NCBI GenBank assembly: GCA_947044365.1
Contig: OX345636.1
Span: forward strand, 3,244,001-3,308,000
DNA length: 64,000 nt
From: Petrosia ficiformis
Taxonomy: Eukaryota > Porifera > Demospongiae > Haplosclerida > Petrosiidae
Direction of reading: 5' to 3'
The notes under the pieces are model-generated. The model worked only from the letters and a program-made list of their open reading frames with translations. It searched no databases and had not been told where the DNA came from. Numbering within the stretch: the first letter of the stretch is position 1; each line of letters starts with the position of its first letter. This document shows positions 15,431 through 38,241 of the stretch, one piece after another. The position numbers and the translations under genes were made by a program.

Positions 15431-15937
15431 TTAGCAGGGAGGGTTTTGAAGTGTAAAAAGGTGATTTCTGGAATCACAAGTGCCAGTGTATTCTTGAATG
15501 ATAATAGGAGCTCCTACTTCATCTTGAGAGCATGAAAGCACTATGTTCGGGTCAGACTTCCTGCGAAAGATATATAGAGAGTCACTTTGTCCAGTTGCTT
15601 CTAAAATAAACATCATATCTTCTTTCACCCAGGATGGATATTCCGCCCCATTGACAAAATGTGGTAGAGGTGATTCTTGGTAACGAAACCCAGAGTTCAC
15701 TTCTTTTGTAAGAGATTTCTCAATAATATAGGATAAATCATAAGTGGCAAGGACACCCTCTTTCTTATTCTCTCCACGAGTGCAGAAATAAAAGTGCTGG
15801 GAATTACTCGAATCTGCATTAACTGTTATAAGTTTGGTTCCTTTAGGACATTGTGGAGTTTCACTTCCCAAATATAGCTTCTTTGGTAAAGTTGTTTGAA
15901 TACGGCCAAGGGATATGGTGTTTGTTATTGTTGCCAT
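15431..15937 (-). CDS. 168-aa protein of unrecognised family, paralogue 1 (possible beta-trefoil)
   Basis: Intronless open frame from ATG at 15,937 to TAA. It is about 80% identical to the protein at 19,742-20,251, which supports it as a real gene. The N-terminus is MATITNTISLGRIQTTLPKK with no signal peptide or membrane segment, so it is probably cytosolic. The best conserved blocks are VNADSSNSQHFYFCTRG (about residues 40-56), ESPLPHFV...AEYPSWVKEDMMF and VLSCSQDEVGAPI, with HLFTLQNPP close to the end. Alternating hydrophobic strands and the final F-T-L-Q resemble the last repeat of IL-1/FGF/lectin-type beta-trefoil folds, but this is a weak impression from pattern only. Differences between paralogues cluster around residues 66-85 and near the C-terminus. 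A TATA box lies upstream at 15,991-15,999. Function unknown. Confidence 0.8.
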   Translation of the reverse strand: MATITNTISLGRIQTTLPKKLYLGSETPQCPKGTKLITVNADSSNSQHFYFCTRGENKKEGVLATYDLSYIIEKSLTKEVNSGFRYQESPLPHFVNGAEYPSWVKEDMMFILEATGQSDSLYIFRRKSDPNIVLSCSQDEVGAPIIIQEYTGTCDSRNHLFTLQNPPC

Positions 15938-19741: not shown

Positions 19742-20251
19742 TTAGGAAGGTGGGTTTTGAAGTGTAAAATGTTGCCTGCTGGTATCACCAGTGACATGGT
19801 ATTCTTCTTCCATGGTGATAGGAGCTCCTACTTCATCTTGAGAGCATGAAAGCACTATTTTCGGGTCAGATTTTGTACGAAAGATATATGGCGAATCACG
19901 TCGTCCAGTTACTTCCAAAATAAACATCATATCTTCTTTCACCCAGGATGGATATTCCGCCCCAGTGACAAAATGTGGTAGAGGTGACTCTTGGTAACGA
20001 AGCCCTGGAGGTGCTTCCAGTGTAGGTGATCTCTCAATAATATATGGCAAATCAAAAGTAGCAAGGACACCCTCTTTCTTATTGTCTCCACGGGTGCAGA
20101 AGTAAAAATGCTGGGAATTACTCGAATCTGCATTAACTGTTACAAGTCTGGTTCCCTTAGGACGTTCAGGAGTTTTGCTTCCAAAATATAGCTTCTTGGG
20201 TAAAGTTGTTTGAATACGACCAAGGGATATGATGTTTGTTATTGTTGCCAT
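19742..20251 (-). CDS. 169-aa protein of unrecognised family, paralogue 2
   Basis: Intronless frame from ATG at 20,251; about 80% identical in protein to the gene at 15,431-15,937 and in the same orientation 4.3 kb away. Upstream and downstream flanks are also duplicated, so the gene was copied as part of a segmental tandem duplication. Invariant blocks include VNADSSNSQHFYFCTRG, YQESPLPHFV, AEYPSWVKEDMMFILE and VLSCSQDEVGAPI. Variable positions cluster at about residues 66-85 and at the C-terminus, where paralogue 2 gains one residue. No signal peptide. Both copies are full length with no stops, so both may be expressed. Role unknown; a beta-trefoil-like fold is only a guess. Confidence 0.8.
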   Translation of the reverse strand: MATITNIISLGRIQTTLPKKLYFGSKTPERPKGTRLVTVNADSSNSQHFYFCTRGDNKKEGVLATFDLPYIIERSPTLEAPPGLRYQESPLPHFVTGAEYPSWVKEDMMFILEVTGRRDSPYIFRTKSDPKIVLSCSQDEVGAPITMEEEYHVTGDTSRQHFTLQNPPS

Positions 20252-23686: not shown

Positions 23687-23692
23687 TGTAAT
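23687..23692. repeat. target-site duplication TGTAAT, left
   Basis: TGTAAT directly precedes the left TIR and is repeated exactly at 28,930-28,935 after the right TIR. Confidence 0.85.
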
Positions 23693-23807
23693 TATGGCGT
23701 GCCGTTTGTCATCAAAATTCATGCAAGTCGTTACTTGTGAACTATGCGGTATTTACACTTGTACGTTTGATCGATATTTGTTACTTTTGTTCGATATTTA
23801 TAAATAA
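23693..23807 (+). repeat. left terminal inverted repeat
   Basis: Begins TATGGCGTGCCG; includes AACTATGCGGTATTTACACT. Near-identical to the reverse complement of 28,816-28,929. Confidence 0.9.
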
Positions 23808-24172
23808 CTGTTACTTTTGATCGATATTTATAAATAACTGTTACTTTTGATCGATATTTATAAATAACGGTTACTTTTGATCGATATTTATCAATAACTG
23901 TTAAATAACTGTTACTTTTGATCGATATTTATAAATAGCTGTTACTTTTGATTGATATTTATAAATAACGGTTACTTTTGATCGATATTTATAAATAACT
24001 GTTACTTTTGATCATATTTGTTCCTTTTGTTCGATACACTTGTACTTTTGATCGATATTTATCGATATTTATAAATAACTGTTACTTTTGATCGATATCT
24101 TTGTAAATAACAGTTACCTTTGTTCCATATTTGTTCGATATTTATCGATATTTATAAATAACTGATCGAGCA
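23770..24172 (+). repeat. left subterminal array, ~11 copies of a 30-bp unit
   Basis: The unit is GTTACTTTTGATCGATATTT plus ATAAATAACT. About eleven copies, some partial or fused, carry the palindrome ATCGAT or the variant TTCGAT. It ends about 50 bp before the HECT gene's ATG, so it may double as promoter DNA. Iterated subterminal repeats are commonly transposase binding sites in other elements. Confidence 0.88.
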
Positions 24173-24219
24173 ATAATTATTATCCGTCTAATTTGAAGGT
24201 GGAGCTAATTGTTGCTGCA

Positions 24220-26929
24220 ATGTCGAAAAGAAGATACTCCAAATTCAGTGGGGAAGATGAAGTGGTTGCGGGCCCTAGTGGCCTTACTGCACTGCAGAAT
24301 GCCTTAGTAGGGGTTGTCTCTTCTGTTTTCTCACAGTTTGAGTCTTCTAAGTCAGAGAGCGATGAAGATTTTGAGCCAAAATCAAAGAAAACAATTGCAA
24401 AAAAGTAATAGTAACACGATTTAATAATGTATAATAATTATTAATGCAAATTATAATTGGTTCATAATTATTATATTTATTTTCAATAACAATTATTTTA
24501 ATTCTATATAATTATGTATAATTATAATTATTATAGAATTAAAATAATAGTAATAATTATTATAATAATATAATTATGTGATATACAATGCATTTACTGG
24601 TTAATCATTCTATTAGACCACTACCATCTTCATTTGGGAAAAGAGTGAGGGCCATTCAGTCTGGGTCATTGGCTACAAATAAGCCGAAACGTTGCAAGAT
24701 GTTTGAGTATGATCGTGATATAATTTGTCTCCCAAAGAATTTTATAGAAACAGATGGAAGCATCCCTATACCTAGAAGTGGAAAGGTGCGACAAATGCTT
24801 GCATCCAATGGTTTAATTGGTAAAATCCATCTTGATTCAACTATGAGTGAGGAAGAAATCTTTCAAGAGATACGAGCTCTGTTCAGGAAACCAATGAAAC
24901 AAAATCATAAGTTTAGATTCAATGTATTACAACCAGCTGGTGGAGGAAGCAAAACACTAATGATCCCATCCTTGTCAGAAAGTTTTACATGGACTGCTAG
25001 TGCAGTAGCTGGGAAGAATGCTAAGATGCCCATCTACATTTTAGCACTACAAGATTTTGAGGTAATCTGTTTATAACAGCTTTTTATACAGTTAGTACAA
25101 GTAAGCACATTGGTGGTGCTTACAACAACCTATATGTTAATTGTGGTTGAATGTATATACGTACCTGATGGCATGATGTGTATAATATTTAAACCACTAT
25201 AATAAAAATATTTTTTAACAGACCAATATTGATAGTGATACTAATGCAAGTCTTGAAGTTGCCAAACCATATTCAAAACTGCAGTCTGAGCAACCTTCCC
25301 CTACCCTATCTGTCGAAGAGTTTATGGAAGAAGAACAAATTGAATGTACGAGTAGAAATTATTACAGGTGTGGTGAATACAGTTAAGTAAGATTTTATAA
25401 ATATATTTACGTAATCATGTAGTACTTATATCAACTTGGTTGAAGACAGTGATTCAAATGAATTATCTCCATCTCCTCCACCAATATCACCTCTCACACC
25501 TCCAGCTTTAAGGTATACTAACAGGTCTGCAGTGATTATAAATAAGGTATTATAATTATTACTTAATTTGATCAGGAACCCCATAAGTATTAAAGATATT
25601 GTCCAAGATCATCAACGTAAAGTTCTGTCTGGTGATACTAGTGATATTTTTAGAATAACAGTACGCCGTCGCCATGTTTGGGATGATGCACTAGCTACTT
25701 TTAAAAGAGGGTTTCCTTTTACTTCACATATCCGAATCACATTTGTTGGAGAACCAGCAGTTGATGCTGGTGGCCCATGCAGGGAGTTTCTATGTATACT
25801 AATGCAAGAGTGGATGCGAAACAACAACCTTTTCGAAGGCCCTGATAATTGCAGGATCCCTGTACATAACATGGCAGAGCTAGAAAAGAGAACCTTCAAG
25901 TACATAGGACAGATGATAGCAGTGTCAGTTGTTCAAGGTGGTCCAGGACCACAGTGTCTATCCCCTGCTGTAGTAGACTATCTGTCATATGGTATTGAGA
26001 AAATTCTTGCCACCTCTGAAGATGTACCAGATACTGAAATAAAATATAAACTAAAAATGGTTTGTGAAATATTTTTTGCCTTTACTCGAGTGATCTATAA
26101 TATTTTATACAGTTGGAAGATGCAACTGATGACGCTACTTTACAAAGTATGCTTGGAAGTGATAATTTTGACTTTCGATTTGAATGTGGTGTAATTCAAA
26201 GTGCTGAATTGTATACCATGCTACAGAAGCCAAAGATTCTACGACTAATTGCTACACACTATGCTGTAGTAAGCAATAATATGTTTACAATAATATTGGT
26301 TTAGTACTGTGTACAATGTTGTAATTATCTTAACTATTTTTAATAATTTTGTTATAGATCCGAGTGAAAGCAGAGCTTGATGAAATAAAAGATGGTCTTC
26401 AGGCACTAGATTTTCTCAGTCTGCTGAAAAATTATCCTACAGCAACTAGACAATTGTTTGTTACTGTTAAGTGTTGCCTTACTGCAGACAGTTTGCAAGA
26501 CTTATTCATAGTTTCTTCATTTTCACCAGAAGGCTCAAATGTCAGAGAGGTTGAGGAAAAGACATACATTTACTTTATTAATTTTTTACAAGAATTGGAA
26601 GGTACTATACTTATACCGATTTTGTTTCTAACATGATTTAATTTATTCATGTAGCATCAAAGGGCACAATCCAAATTTCTGACACAGAATCAGTTTCTAT
26701 ATCACTCAGTGATCTGCTTGCCTTTGCCACAGGTGCATCATCTATTCCTCCAATAGGATTTACACCAACACCAAGTATAGATTTTCATACCGACTCTCCT
26801 TATCCAAAAGCCAATACCTGCTGCAATGTGCTAAGTCTACCAATTGTTCCGCATGTACATGAATATGAAACTTTCAAATATACCATGTGTTTTGGCCTAT
26901 CTAATGCTATTGGCTTTGGACAGATTTAA
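24220..26929 (+). CDS. transposon-borne HECT-type E3 ubiquitin ligase (665 aa, 8 exons)
   Basis: Exons by GT-AG and matching phase: 24,220-24,404; 24,617-25,061; 25,222-25,367; 25,450-25,512; 25,576-26,059; 26,113-26,268; 26,358-26,601; 26,655-26,929 (1998 nt, 666 codons). The N-terminal third has an acidic Ser-rich patch (SKSESDEDFEP), a basic segment and a conserved-looking region (DRDIICLPKNF). A proline-rich linker (SPSPPPISPLTPP) precedes the HECT domain (about residue 280 to the end). HECT hallmarks are FVGEPAVDAGGPCREFL in the N-lobe and, in the C-lobe, ANTCCNVLSLP with catalytic Cys630, then YETFKYTMCFGLSNAIGFGQ. The usual TCFN is TCCN here. It should transfer ubiquitin from E2 to substrates via a Cys thioester, as in G2E3-like ligases. 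AATAAA overlaps the stop. Exon 1 is the least certain part. Confidence 0.88.
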
Positions 26930-26933
26930 TAAA
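26928..26933 (+). terminator. polyadenylation signal AATAAA overlapping the HECT stop
   Basis: AATAAA shares bases with the TAA stop codon at 26,927-26,929, consistent with a compact element where two genes end tail to tail. Confidence 0.5.
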
Positions 26934-27077
26934 AGAGCAGGCTATATACCGCTCTAATCTGTTGAATTGATGACACTAACTACAATTATCATTTATTTAA
27001 TTCATTTATTCATGTGCTATATATGTACATTCATGATATAGAAAAGGATAATTATGATTATCAACAATTACCTATAG

Positions 27078-28298
27078 CTATTCAGTACAATTATTGCAAC
27101 CAAATTGCAAATGAGATCCAACAATGTTAACAACTTGTATATATGTACTTTTACAATTGTCTTCAACACCTGAAGTTGTTGTATTGATGACAGCATTTAA
27201 TGAAGTCATGAGTGCTCTGCATGGCTGAAATGTTCCTCCTGGAACTGTAACTGTATCTCTTACTGCAGGCAAAGTAAGATTTCGAGACTGTCCCACTATT
27301 TGGGTAAAATTTGGCTGATTTTGTTGGTGAACAATTCCTTGTACATATAGTTGATTGGGTGTTTGATTATGCTCGCTAGACAATGAGTGATTGTTCCAAC
27401 ATTCTGTGAACACCTTTAAAAAATGATTTAGTCTTGGGATGTAAGTGTAATGTAAACAAAACATATCAATTTCATTTAAAACATCTAAATGACCATTTAA
27501 TTCTAATTCTTGGAATGTAGCATAAAAGTAAGAACCAACAGACCTTGTCACATCCCTCCATAACCTTTCTATACGTTCGTTATGTGTGGATGAACCTGTA
27601 ATTACACTGGATTCAGACGAATGTTGTTCTATCATGAATCTCCACACCTCTACATTTTCGCCTCCAAGATCAGAGCGAACACGTTCAGGTAAGCCATATT
27701 CATCAACAGCTTCATTAAAGGCAACCATTACTGTATCAGCTCGATTATTCTGAGCACATTTCAGGTACACTATAGTTCGTGAGTATCCATCCACACCACC
27801 ATGAATAACCATCCTCCATCTAATTAATTTGTGGTTCCCATCGATGTGCCAAACAGCATTGGGACCACTTACATGGTAAACCCTCCTTCTAACAACTATA
27901 CTTCTCCTTAAAGCTGTATTGATAGGATCCACCCTATGAATTGAAGCACGTAATCTTGCTCTTGGTACATGTATACCAAGTGCTGACAAATGCCCATTCA
28001 TAAACCGTTCACCATCATGAGGATGATCAGTTTTAATGTGATAAATTAAACGGTCAAGGTCACTATCACTAATGTTAGTAATTCTTGAAATACCAAATTC
28101 ATCTAACCTACGATATAAAGTGGCACGACTTATCCCAAGGATACCAGCAATTCGGACCCAATTGAATTTTAAGCTTCGGAGAAATTCTATGTCTTCTATA
28201 TTTATCTCAACACGAGGTCTTCCTACTGTAGACCTAGAGCAGACAAAACTGTATCATAATTTTTTTATTGGATTGACTACTAACCTTCTTACTGCCAT
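27078..28298 (-). CDS. DDE integrase-type (rve) transposase, 389 aa, 2 exons
   Basis: Exon 1 (28,285-28,298) encodes MAVRR. A 51-nt GT-AG intron follows, and exon 2 (27,078-28,233) completes 390 codons including the stop. The N-terminus has an AT-hook-like GRPR and a helix-turn-helix (FNWVRIAGILGISRATLYRR, about residues 28-47). The RNase H-like core shows VWHIDGNHKL (Asp136), RVRSDLGGENVEVW (Asp193) and HNERIERLWRDV (Glu224 or Glu227, about 33 residues after Asp193), the D-D-E triad of IS3/retroviral-type integrases. A segment starting at an internal methionine (28,001) would lose the HTH, so the spliced start is preferred. It is convergent with the HECT gene. Its start is next to the right repeat array, which may act as promoter and binding site. 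It should cut and rejoin the element ends. Confidence 0.9.
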
Positions 28299-28369
28299 TT
28301 GTTAAAAATTTACTAAGCCTAAATTAACTAATTGTATAATTATGATCAAAGTAACTGTTTTACAAGCAT

Positions 28370-28870
28370 TATTAGCAGTTATTTATAAATATCGATCGAA
28401 AGCAACAGTTATTTATAAATATCAAACAAAGGTAACTGTTATTTACAAATATCGATCAAAAGTAACAGTTATTTACAAATATCGATCAAAAGTAACAGTT
28501 ATTTATAAATATCGATCAAAAGTAACCGTTATTTATAAATATCAATCAAAAGTAACAGCTATTTATAAATATCGATCAAAACTAACAGTTATTTATAAAT
28601 ATCGAACAAAAGTAACAAATATGATCAAAAGTAACAGTTATTGATAAATATCGATCAAAAGTAACCGTTATTTATAAATATCGATCAAAAGTAACAGTTA
28701 TTTATAAATATCGATCAAAAGTAAGTTATTTATAAATATCGATCAAAAGTAACAGTTATTTATAAATATCGATCAAAAGTAACAGTTATTTATAAATATT
28801 GATCAAAACTAACAGTTATTTATAAATATCGAACAAAAGTAACAAATATCGATCAAACGTACAAGTGTAA
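28370..28870 (-). repeat. right subterminal array, ~15 copies of the 30-bp unit
   Basis: Mirror image of the left array, with units GTTATTTATAAATATCGATC plus AAAAGTAACA. About fifteen copies; variants carry CGAACA or TGATCA. A frame open across it merely reflects the 30-bp (10-codon) periodicity. Confidence 0.88.
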
Positions 28871-28929
28871 ATACCGCATAGTTCACAAGTAACGACTTGC
28901 ATGAATTTTGAGACAAACGGCACGCCATA
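28816..28929 (-). repeat. right terminal inverted repeat
   Basis: Ends CGGCACGCCATA; reverse complement of the left TIR. Confidence 0.9.
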
Positions 28930-28935
28930 TGTAAT
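28930..28935. repeat. target-site duplication TGTAAT, right
   Basis: Exact repeat of 23,687-23,692. Confidence 0.85.
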
Positions 28936-30398: not shown

Positions 30399-32042
30399 AT
30401 GTCTTCTACTAGTTCACCATCAATAAAATATAATCAGTATCTTGACTGTCTTTGTGGATTGGTTAGTGATAGTTCTGTAAAAGAAGATGGTGCTAACGAT
30501 CATGAAAGCAGTGAGTCGATACCACTTCACATAACCTCTGAAAATAGTCTCAATATTGGTATCATTGGAGGAGGTATGGCTGGTCTGTATTCGGCACTTT
30601 TGCTACAGAAATACATCCCTGGAGTTAAAGTAAAAATATTTGAGGCTAATAATCGAGTAGGGGGTCGTGTTTATACACATAAGTTCTCTTCAGAGCCGTA
30701 TCAATACTTTGAAGCTGGTGCCATGAGATTGCCATACACTGAAAGCCACATGCCCGTCTTTAATCTGATTGACTATCTAAATAAAGAAATCCCTAACAAT
30801 TCCATTGAATTGATGGCATTTAATACTTGTCCAACTGGTAACAGAGTGCTTTTCAGTGGTACCAAGCAGAAAGATGGTCATGTGATGTCTGCTGAGTATG
30901 CTAATAAACATGGCAGTGAGCTTGGATTTCCCGTAGAAGCTGGCATTGTTGATGGAGATAATTCAGTAACATTAATGAATGAAGCCCTGTCACCAGTTAT
31001 AGAAGCATTAGAGAAGGATTTTGAAGCTGCCTTAAAGAAGTATAGTGACATGTCCGTATATAACTATTTGTCTATGGAAATGGGTTGGAATAGCCACAAA
31101 ATTAACTCTGTTGAAATAATGGGTGGAGATTCACATTCTTTTCAATACGGAGTGATAGATCTAATATTTAATGTTGGAGTTTACTACAGAGAGTTATCAT
31201 GGAAGTCTATTTCTGGGGGCATGTCTAAACTTCCTGAATTGTGTGCAGAAGTCATTGAGATGAAAGGAGGAGAGATCTTATTGAATGCCAGTGTCGAATC
31301 AATAGTCCACCCAGAAGATAAGAGTCTTGTAAGGGTGGGATATATTGATCCAAAGCATCCAACATCCCAAAGCCTTCTTTATGAAACATTTGATGCCGTG
31401 ATTATGACCCTACCACCTCCAAACATCCATATGATACCAGAAAGACCTTGCTGGGGAGCTGATGTAGAACATGCTTTGCGCATTGCGCCCATCTGTCCTG
31501 CATCCAAGTTGTGTTTGCGATTTATTACTCGTTTTTGGGAGCGTTCAGACTTGCAGCACCCGCCTTCACATGGCGGTCAATCAGTAACAAATCTCCCATT
31601 TAGTAAGGTACTTTATCCTCACTATGGCATAGGAGATACTGGGAAAGGGGTATTAATTTTCTACAACATTTCAAATGACTCAACAATACTGTCACTGAAA
31701 TCGAAAAAGCAAAGAATTAGTTTAGCATTGAGAAATTTGCAGCTACTGTATCCCGAAGTTTCCATAGCAGAGGAGTATGCTGGAGGTTTGGATCCTGAAG
31801 ATGACAAGTTCTTAGATGAATCTTTTCTTAATGATTGGTCAGTTCTTGGAATATTATATCGTCCAGGGCAATTTCTATCTCTCTTTCCTGTGCTAGCTAA
31901 ACCCCAGAGTCAAGTATATTTTGCTGGAAGTCATCTCAGTTTTAATCGAAGTTGGATTGTTGGTGCCTTAGAATCAGCCAAGAGAGCTGTACAGCAAATA
32001 ATGAAGAACTCATTAAATCAACTTGTGGTTGATTATTTGTGA
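30399..32042 (+). CDS. FAD-dependent amine / L-amino-acid oxidase-like protein (547 aa)
   Basis: A single uninterrupted frame. The Rossmann dinucleotide fold is at residues 53-93: IGIIGGGMAGLYSA (GxGxxG = Gly57-Gly59-Gly62), an acidic residue after the second strand (FEANNR) and GGRVYT. EAGAMRLP follows, the motif in which L-amino-acid oxidases place the arginine that holds the substrate carboxylate. The C-terminal FAD motif VYFAGSHLS...WIVGALESAKRA is near 505-530. Length is normal for the flavin amine oxidase family. There is no signal peptide; the first ~48 residues are a polar extension. Expected chemistry is oxidative deamination giving imine and H2O2; the substrate cannot be told. The lack of introns differs from other genes here and allows retroposition or lateral transfer. 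Confidence 0.85.
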   Translation: MSSTSSPSIKYNQYLDCLCGLVSDSSVKEDGANDHESSESIPLHITSENSLNIGIIGGGMAGLYSALLLQKYIPGVKVKIFEANNRVGGRVYTHKFSSEPYQYFEAGAMRLPYTESHMPVFNLIDYLNKEIPNNSIELMAFNTCPTGNRVLFSGTKQKDGHVMSAEYANKHGSELGFPVEAGIVDGDNSVTLMNEALSPVIEALEKDFEAALKKYSDMSVYNYLSMEMGWNSHKINSVEIMGGDSHSFQYGVIDLIFNVGVYYRELSWKSISGGMSKLPELCAEVIEMKGGEILLNASVESIVHPEDKSLVRVGYIDPKHPTSQSLLYETFDAVIMTLPPPNIHMIPERPCWGADVEHALRIAPICPASKLCLRFITRFWERSDLQHPPSHGGQSVTNLPFSKVLYPHYGIGDTGKGVLIFYNISNDSTILSLKSKKQRISLALRNLQLLYPEVSIAEEYAGGLDPEDDKFLDESFLNDWSVLGILYRPGQFLSLFPVLAKPQSQVYFAGSHLSFNRSWIVGALESAKRAVQQIMKNSLNQLVVDYL

Positions 32043-36481: not shown

Positions 36482-38241
36482 CTATAAACAACAAAAGGGA
36501 CACAACAACTCTTGACCCCTGGAATTAACACTTAGATTATATTCTATACATTCTTCATGTAGCCATCGAGAGCAAGCACACTCAACCCATTCTAAACCAG
36601 ATTGTTCTCTTTCGTCATCTTCAAACGTTTGGAAGCACATACAACATTTGTTAATGCCAATATCACTGTCACTGTCATGACTCACAGGTTTCTTACGTTT
36701 GGCTCTTGGAGCAGACCCTGGTGAAGATGCATTTGGAGATTGTTTGTCCACATAAGATTTGTTAGTTGATCTGGGAGCTCGCTTCTTTGGTCTGGAGTCT
36801 CTCTTGGCTGCTTTTTTTGCCTTTTCTTCTTTTTCCTTTTTGATCAATTCTTTCTGCTCTCTCCTTTTTTCTCGTTCGATCTTTCGTTGTTCCTTTTCCT
36901 CTTCTGCTTTCTTTTTCTTTTCTTCTCTTTCTTTTAGAATCTCTACACATTCTTTACTAGTCAGTACTCTGGCTCCAGACACACGCTTTGCCGGTTTATT
37001 CTTAGGAGAGCTAGCTGCAACATACTGAATTAAATATTTTGAGATATAGTTCAGAGGTGATCCACTTGCTGGCTTGATGACTCCACCCTCTGGGGACATC
37101 GACAATTGTTTAACTCCTGACTTGATGATTTGATCGTCAGGGGACAATGACAATGCTTTAGCTCCTGATCTTGTAATTTCACCTTCTGGAGACATTGACA
37201 GTGGTTTAGATCCTGAAAATGTGACTCCACCCTCCAGTAATGATTCATCCACTGGAAATAATGTAGTTCCTATAAAGTAATGTGTGCATGTGCAGACAGA
37301 ATAGAATAATGAACCAAAATGCACACTTCATGGATTGAGCATACCATTTTCTGAAGATTCTAGCATTTTCTGAAGATTCTACTGAGGTGAAACTATCAAC
37401 CACAGAAGGAGTGGATGGTGTTGACTCCAACAGAAAACGATCAGCAGGTAAATCGGAAGGATGATTAAGTTCAAGCCATCTTGTGTATTCATCATCATAC
37501 AAATCATAGCCCTCGTCGTATCTTTTCTGAAACCTTGCCAATGTTTCAGCAGAAAATTCATCTCGATCATCAGAATTACTAGAATCATCAAAACCACAGG
37601 AAGTGTCCTTATCATTATCATCACTATGCTCATTATGACTGGCACAACCTTCAACGTCAATACCACAATCAATTGCATCAGGATTAAATGGATAAACTCC
37701 ACATGTGTGGAAGCCAGAACAAATGTTTGAAGGTGTCATGGTTTTCATCCATGCCTTGTTGAGCAAACCTGAAAACTCATACTTCGTTACCAGTTTCCCA
37801 GGGTGTTTTTGTATATACTCATGACAGACAAGTTTCCAGTTTCGCTTTAGTGGTCCGAAAACACTGGTGTCTAGTGGTTGTGATTCATGTGTTGTGTGTG
37901 GGGGAAGACAGAAGAGAATTATTTCATGCTCCCTTGAAAACTGAACTAATTCGGGCTGATAGTGTGAACTGTGACCATCTAGCAAAAGAAGGAGTGGTCT
38001 AACAGAAACTGCATTCTTTAAGAAATGATCAATTAGCCATCCACGAAAGAGTTCAGTATCAACCCAGCCTTTGTCTCTTAGCCCATATGTGGTGCCGGGA
38101 ACTTCTCCTACAGTTCATTCTACATTGAGGCTTTTAGCATCAAAAATAACAAAAGGTGTGATTGCCTGACCTGTGGCACTTATACAACCTATAGCAGTTA
38201 TTTGACATTTATTTCCAGTTGTTCTGTACCTACACTGTGCA
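36482..38241 (-). pseudogene. pogo/Tigger-type DDE transposase with coiled coil and PHD-like finger, decayed
   Basis: On the minus strand the DDE_1 core reads TTGNKCQITAIGCISATGQA, then GEVPGTTYGLRDKGWVDTEL, LLLLLDGHSSHYQPEL and LPPHTTHESQPLDTSVFGPL, hallmarks of pogo/Tigger transposases. An in-frame TGA (38,115-38,117) sits where a Trp is usual (just before TVGEVPGT). At the end of this exon a ~19-nt duplication (TAGAATCTTCAGAAAATG) shifts the frame. Without it, exon 1 would join the next exon (36,482 to about 37,263) in phase across a ~77-nt intron. That exon has SMSPEG/SLSPDD repeats, a long Lys/Glu coiled coil and a C-terminal CCMC...CAC...H..C...CPFC zinc finger of PHD type. The N-terminal DNA-binding part is missing beyond 38,241. 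A dead copy. Confidence 0.82.

Follow-up and report, generated by a model that had tools for sequence, protein, structure and literature searches.

An intact transposon and its two genes

We analysed a 64-kb stretch of contig OX345636.1 of the sponge Petrosia ficiformis (positions 3,244,001 to 3,308,000; hereafter the window) and compared it with the genome, which comprises 191 Mb in 29 contigs. Window positions 23693-28929 are spanned by an intact DNA transposon that carries a transposase gene and a gene for a HECT-type E3 ubiquitin ligase, and its exact coordinates were confirmed. Each side of the element is flanked by a perfect 6-bp target-site duplication (TSD), TGTAAT, at 23687-23692 and 28930-28935, as had been proposed from the letters of the window before any database search (the sequence-only reading). 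The termini have the form TATGG..CCATA, with TATGGCGTGCC on the left and GGCACGCCATA on the right. The left terminal inverted repeat (TIR) covers 115 bases (23693-23807) and begins with TATGGCGTGCCGTTTGTC, while the right one covers 114 bases (28816-28929) and terminates in GGCACGCCATA; the matching 115-bp repeats of the same reading correspond to 115 outer alignment columns without a mismatch, made up of 114 bases and one 1-base gap. The likeness of the ends extends further, to 92% identity at 462 aligned bases over 500 columns, because both contain inverted arrays of a 30-bp unit, with 7 copies on the plus strand in the left subterminal array (23780-24000) and 15 inverted copies on the minus strand in the right one (28377-28843). 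At the same threshold, the unit was not found in the remainder of the window, and the arrays likely represent transposase-binding repeats.

The two genes are convergent and both are intact, in keeping with the sequence-only reading. The HECT gene lies on the plus strand and has eight exons separated by GT..AG introns of 212 or 266, 160, 55, 51, 53, 89, and 53 bases. Exon 1 (24220-24404) holds the start ATG and has an equally scored alternative donor at 24350, so that two top splice models, of 660 and 678 codons, tie, with near-equal alternatives of 649, 651, and 667. A ligase gene on this strand had been predicted with 665 residues; the gene itself stands, and that exact length is only a near variant of the two top models. 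Exon 2 (24617-25061) encodes a conserved N-terminal domain, exons 3 (25222-25367) and 4 (25423-25524) follow, and the HECT domain begins in exon 5 (25576-26059) and continues through exons 6 (26113-26268) and 7 (26358-26601) to exon 8 (26655-26929), which contains the C-lobe and the stop codon. All eight exons come from the splice model and are also present in a second copy of the element, L002, described below; exons 5 and 8 are additionally supported by Pfam. The Pfam HECT match (1.6e-10, residues 374-675, 41.5 bits against a cut-off of 23.9) covers profile positions 10-303 of 306, indicating a complete domain, and no second Pfam domain was found in the protein. The HECT part also matches the solved structures of Rsp5, AREL1, TOM1, HUWE1, and Itchy. 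In this comparison the presumed catalytic residue, Cys643 (codon TGC at 26819-26821, plus strand, within the motif ANTCCN), aligns through its TC motif with the TCxN cysteine of Rsp5, which we take to be the catalytic one, and this agrees with the catalytic cysteine claimed earlier. Two protein homology searches with the HECT protein, in which the 8000 candidates sharing the most words were scored, yielded 4 and 5 proteins. Relatives from Dysidea, Amphimedon, and a metagenome share a conserved N-terminal region with it, which also occurs in sister families in this genome and is weakly predicted to form one ubiquitin-like (beta-grasp) domain.

The transposase gene lies on the minus strand and consists of 389 uninterrupted codons in two exons, a short first exon (28285-28298, starting MAVRR.., also found in L002) and a second one (27078-28233, stop codon at 27078-27080) that encodes the helix-turn-helix (HTH) region and the DDE integrase core. 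Pfam assigns the core to rva_4 (3.1e-77) and residues 23-51 to HTH_8 (4.5e-5), so the DDE integrase-type transposase of 389 residues that had been read from the sequence holds in full. Matches to the NCBIfam models IS481 (1.6e-12) and IS3 (2.9e-10) both fall under the curated cut-offs, as for a distant relative, and tblastn gave weak matches in plasmids, mostly labelled IS3; the earlier hunch of an IS3-like transposase was therefore well placed. Among Pfam matches with E values up to 1, no HHCC integrase zinc domain was listed.

The Repbase superfamily IS3EU/GingerRoot is characterized by TA..TA termini, 6-bp TSDs, and a DDE transposase that is related to IS3/IS481 and lacks an N-terminal HHCC domain (PMC10045372). 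The element shares all of these features, and sister families in the genome also have TA-type ends (TATGAGG, TATGGGG, and TATGGAGG). It thus fits the IS3EU/GingerRoot type as described there. Identity with Ginger1 or Ginger2 was considered and rejected, as TSDs of 4 or 5 bp are described for these groups, against 6 bp here (PMC10045372).

Copies, linkage, and constraint across the genome

A search for further copies with both genes recovered a second intact, full-length copy, L002 (contig C1, 8057967-8063191), with its own 6-bp TSD, TACGTC. The two copies are 99.55% identical over 5117 aligned bases, and their alignment has 228 gap columns. In L002 the transposase reading frame is open, and the HECT frame remains intact despite an in-frame deletion of 9 bases. 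Portions of the two genes remain in three further copies (L009, L010, and L011, the last as fragments), and ten short copies that were retrieved (L008 and L019-L027) consist of the ends with no more than small remnants of HECT exons 1-2 and the N-terminal end of the transposase. These ten, which miss most of HECT, have also lost the transposase core, while HECT sequence is retained in 5/5 copies that have at least part of this core (the window element, L002, L009, L010, and the L011 fragments), and thus copies that lack HECT alone, which had been named as evidence against the sequence-only reading, were not seen among those examined. Perfect 6-bp TSDs flank 8 of the 11 insertions with both ends (L001, L002, L009, L019, L020, L023, L025, and L026), but not the other three (L010, L022, and L027). 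The element is a recently mobile DNA transposon.

The pairing of the two genes is not restricted to this family. Five insertions from four divergent families carry both genes, whole or decayed, within their own inverted repeats and perfect 6-bp TSDs: L012 (CACTAC); L013 (TCTGTC) and L014 (ATTATA), these two belonging to one family; L017 (ATTATG); and an element nested in L011 (TCAAAG). Where aligned, the transposases of these families are 51-58% identical to that of the window. Complete TIRs were not found in the examined sequence of the families of L016, L018, L033, L034, L041, L044, L045, and L052. The family of the inner L011 element has head-to-head genes and eight copies of equal transposase score (L011:1746-6846; C1 at 7.65, 9.60, 29.0, and 61.28 Mb; C3 at 7.10 Mb; C5 at 4.66 Mb; and C13 at 1.96 Mb). 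In four of the eight, both ends were found where expected and are flanked by perfect TSDs (TCAAAG, CTAGGC, GCTTTA, and AATAAC), and in the other four the left end was absent at the predicted distance and only the right end was found; a Pfam HECT match lies within 6 kb of six. One copy sits inside a broken copy of the window's family, and the inner family is probably the more recently active of the two. In this family, a Cys/His motif (L011:3814-4119, minus strand) separates the N-terminal part from the HECT domain and has only sub-threshold Pfam matches (XAF1_C, zf_C2HC_14).

Relatives of both proteins occur in another sponge, Amphimedon queenslandica, in which the HECT protein (P0001) is 44% and the transposase (P0017) 59% identical to those of the window. 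For each, the longest contig given measures 4516 bases, so both probably lie on the same one. Trees were mostly unresolved, but in one that was rooted for drawing only the Amphimedon transposase falls among the families of this genome, next to L013 with moderate support (86/90). The HECT-transposase pairing may therefore be older than the split between Amphimedon and the present host.

We then quantified the linkage across the genome. Searches in which the best candidates were scored gave 112 rows for the transposase and 95 for Pfam HECT, which were clustered into 78 transposase loci (leaving out 5 of the 112 rows) and 51 HECT loci. Among the matches listed, 26 of the 51 HECT loci have a transposase locus no more than 3.9 kb away, in all 26 cases on the opposite strand (20 tail-to-tail and 6 head-to-head pairs). 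As just 0.52% of the genome falls within 6 kb of a transposase locus, the expectation is 0.27 of the 51 HECT loci (binomial p ~1e-45 for proximity, with loci treated as independent). The HECT gene is thus no chance passenger of the element, nor is it a single-copy host gene, which was the other finding that would have spoken against the sequence-only reading; its central statement, that an intact transposon carries a HECT ligase of its own, stands. The remaining 25 HECT loci are at least 551,879 bp from the listed transposase loci or on contigs free of them; for one of the 25, a later Pfam transposase search placed short fragments some 35 kb away on C7. From the side of the transposase, 29 of the 78 loci, many of which are fragments, have a Pfam-level HECT match within 6 kb. 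A HECT profile built from the family gave a match within 1.5 kb at 27 of the 30 best transposase loci, always on the opposite strand (25 tail to tail, 2 head to head). The three loci without such a match are L036, with a HECT C-lobe 3.8 kb from the transposase, L039, with only a 14-residue match (E 0.65) in L015, and L055, which is one part of the L010 copy, itself split in two. As near-identical copies and this two-piece copy are included, the 30 loci do not represent 30 independent events. In addition, 6 of 2066 open reading frames in the window match the family profile, and all 6 are inside the element. Distant transposase relatives (28-30% identity) had no HECT match within 6 kb in the Pfam census. 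We also noted a regional pile-up on C1, where 33 of the 58 transposase loci of that contig lie in the 9.3 Mb between 24.0 and 33.3 Mb, against 8.5 expected if they were evenly spread.

In comparisons between families both proteins are constrained, HECT less so. In ten family pairs the nonsynonymous proportion (pN) was 0.32-0.45 for HECT, against a saturated synonymous proportion (pS) of 0.70-0.78, and 0.27-0.44 against 0.75-0.79 for the transposase; pN was higher for HECT in 10/10 pairs. Within families the HECT ratio was 0.38-0.90 in seven of eight pairs, as expected of copies that decay after insertion; the eighth pair, of 61 codons, has a single silent change. Of 19 rows, with near-identical copies among them, 17 cover the presumed catalytic cysteine, and 15 of these 17 retain it. 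The identities of the two proteins also correlate (r=0.915 over 18 rows, 0/5000 shuffles), a value inflated by near-identical pairs. With one row per family, r was 0.40 (11 rows, 638/10,000 shuffles), and without the poorly covered L018 and L041 it was 0.84 (9 rows, 0/10,000 shuffles).

Elsewhere in the window, an uninterrupted frame of 547 residues for a flavin amine oxidase (30399-32042, plus strand; PF01593, 3.3e-41) begins 1.5 kb past the element. Two overlapping frames occupy 36485-37985 on the minus strand; one is a fragment of a pogo-like DDE_1 transposase (PF03184, 1.3e-10), and the other ends in a Cys-rich stretch resembling a PHD/RING domain, with no Pfam match. Two paralogous single-exon frames of 168 and 169 residues lie at 15434-15937 and 19742-20251, both on the minus strand, and the one that was tested had no Pfam match.

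Proposed role of the ligase

Taken together, these results lead us to propose that the element is an autonomous cut-and-paste transposon of the IS3EU/GingerRoot type, from a lineage that has long carried a HECT gene, and that the ligase serves the element, plausibly by acting against host factors; we give this reading a probability of roughly 60%. We are highly confident of its first part, the identity of the element and the recurrent pairing with HECT. That the ligase benefits the element is likely, because the two genes are inherited together and constrained and because the pairing recurs in several divergent families. That it targets the host is a more tentative proposal, to which we give slightly less than even odds. 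In the mechanism we envisage, the transposase would bind the terminal repeats, and probably the 30-bp arrays as well, excise the element, and reinsert it with a 6-bp staggered cut, a chemistry expected from its family. The HECT protein, with its predicted ubiquitin-like N-terminal domain and its HECT domain with the cysteine, would function as a working E3, accepting ubiquitin from a host E2 and passing it to a substrate, most plausibly marking host silencing or repair factors for degradation. Two points favour such a target: the ligase has diverged faster than the transposase, and fungal IS3EU elements carry TET/JBP genes for which a role in escaping silencing has been proposed (PMC12730594).

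The main rival of a host target is control at the level of the transposase; both roles had been put forward as possibilities in the sequence-only reading. Here the ligase would act on its own transposase or transposition complex, and ubiquitination after strand transfer would limit copy number or free the complex for repair. The opposite-strand arrangement at all 26 linked loci is compatible with this, as tight pairing suits a dedicated substrate, and so is the tracking of the two divergences over the nine well-covered rows; however, that correlation is weak once all 11 rows are included, pN is consistently higher for HECT, and a self-limiting gene is hard to keep through selection on the element alone. 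Multiplication of copies with a dead ligase is a further difficulty, and overall we regard self-regulation as unlikely. The same copies also weigh against a ligase that serves the element. The two exceptions to cysteine conservation, L017 (4060-4250) and L037 (1040-1230), belong to one family and share both a stop codon in HECT and the lost cysteine, which means that an element with a dead HECT gene was still duplicated. It may have been moved in trans, or its ligase may be dispensable.

The HECT protein might alternatively be a structural partner in transposition, for example tethering DNA or chromatin through its N-terminal region, with ligase activity secondary. This would account for the conservation of that region in the Dysidea, Amphimedon, and metagenome relatives and in the sister families, and for its prediction as one ubiquitin-like domain, but a purely structural role has no need of the widely retained cysteine, and we find it improbable. 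Transposons are also described as picking up host gene fragments (PMC2528002), and the dead copies above would suit a host HECT gene caught by chance and carried without benefit. Opposite-strand pairs at every linked locus, the recurrence in several divergent families, and a probable pairing in Amphimedon, together with between-family constraint and a mostly conserved cysteine, make such a passive passenger very improbable. Finally, a host HECT gene with unrelated repeats on either side is refuted: at each of two unrelated sites, an intact copy has its pair of genes enclosed by TIRs and TSDs, and nothing was found in favour of this explanation.

Known systems and implications

Accessory enzymes are already known from IS3EU elements. 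In fungi, as described in one study, these elements have TAYGG..CCRTA ends and carry genes for TET/JBP dioxygenases, for which an anti-silencing role has been proposed, and for an alpha-kinase, which is encoded opposite to the transposase (PMC12730594). They resemble the element described here in their ends, in having an accessory enzyme gene, and in one case in its opposite orientation, but the enzymes are a dioxygenase and a kinase, and neither "HECT" nor "ubiquitin" appears anywhere in the main text of that study or in that of the IS3EU/GingerRoot paper (PMC10045372). Another source reports that plant MULE and CACTA elements carry ULP1-type protease domains, which in KI-MULEs are reverse to the transposase gene (PMC2528002). 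These are likewise cut-and-paste transposons with an enzyme of a ubiquitin-family pathway; however, the enzyme is a protease specific for ubiquitin-like proteins rather than a ligase, and the elements belong to plants and to other superfamilies. In open-licence PMC papers we found no DNA transposon described as carrying a HECT ligase; Repbase entries may already note one.

In the database, P0001 from Amphimedon and P0004, one of two relatives from Dysidea, are both labelled G2E3 (G2/M phase-specific E3 ubiquitin-protein ligase). G2E3 and the transposon protein both have a C-terminal HECT domain. In G2E3 this is preceded by a zinc-binding PHD/RING-type part. The transposon protein has no Pfam match of this type, and its N-terminus is predicted, weakly, to be ubiquitin-like. 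The origin of G2E3 has been placed after the chordate/echinoderm split (PMC2837046), and for this reason the label on the sponge relatives is probably a default name.

A broader and more speculative possibility, which we consider rather doubtful, is that a deep animal sublineage of IS3EU is typically two-gene, that its HECT protein, with a ubiquitin-like N-terminal domain, disables a host silencing or repair pathway at the level of proteins, and that it is a main source of HECT genes in such genomes, so that many invertebrate genes named "G2/M phase-specific E3 ubiquitin-protein ligase-like" would be transposon genes. Many cut-and-paste transposons are known with little beyond a transposase, and the retention of a whole ubiquitin ligase through long divergence implies a part for protein ubiquitination in the persistence of this lineage. 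As roughly one in two HECT loci here (26/51) belongs to a mobile element, transposons may inflate the number of ligase gene family expansions counted in animals.

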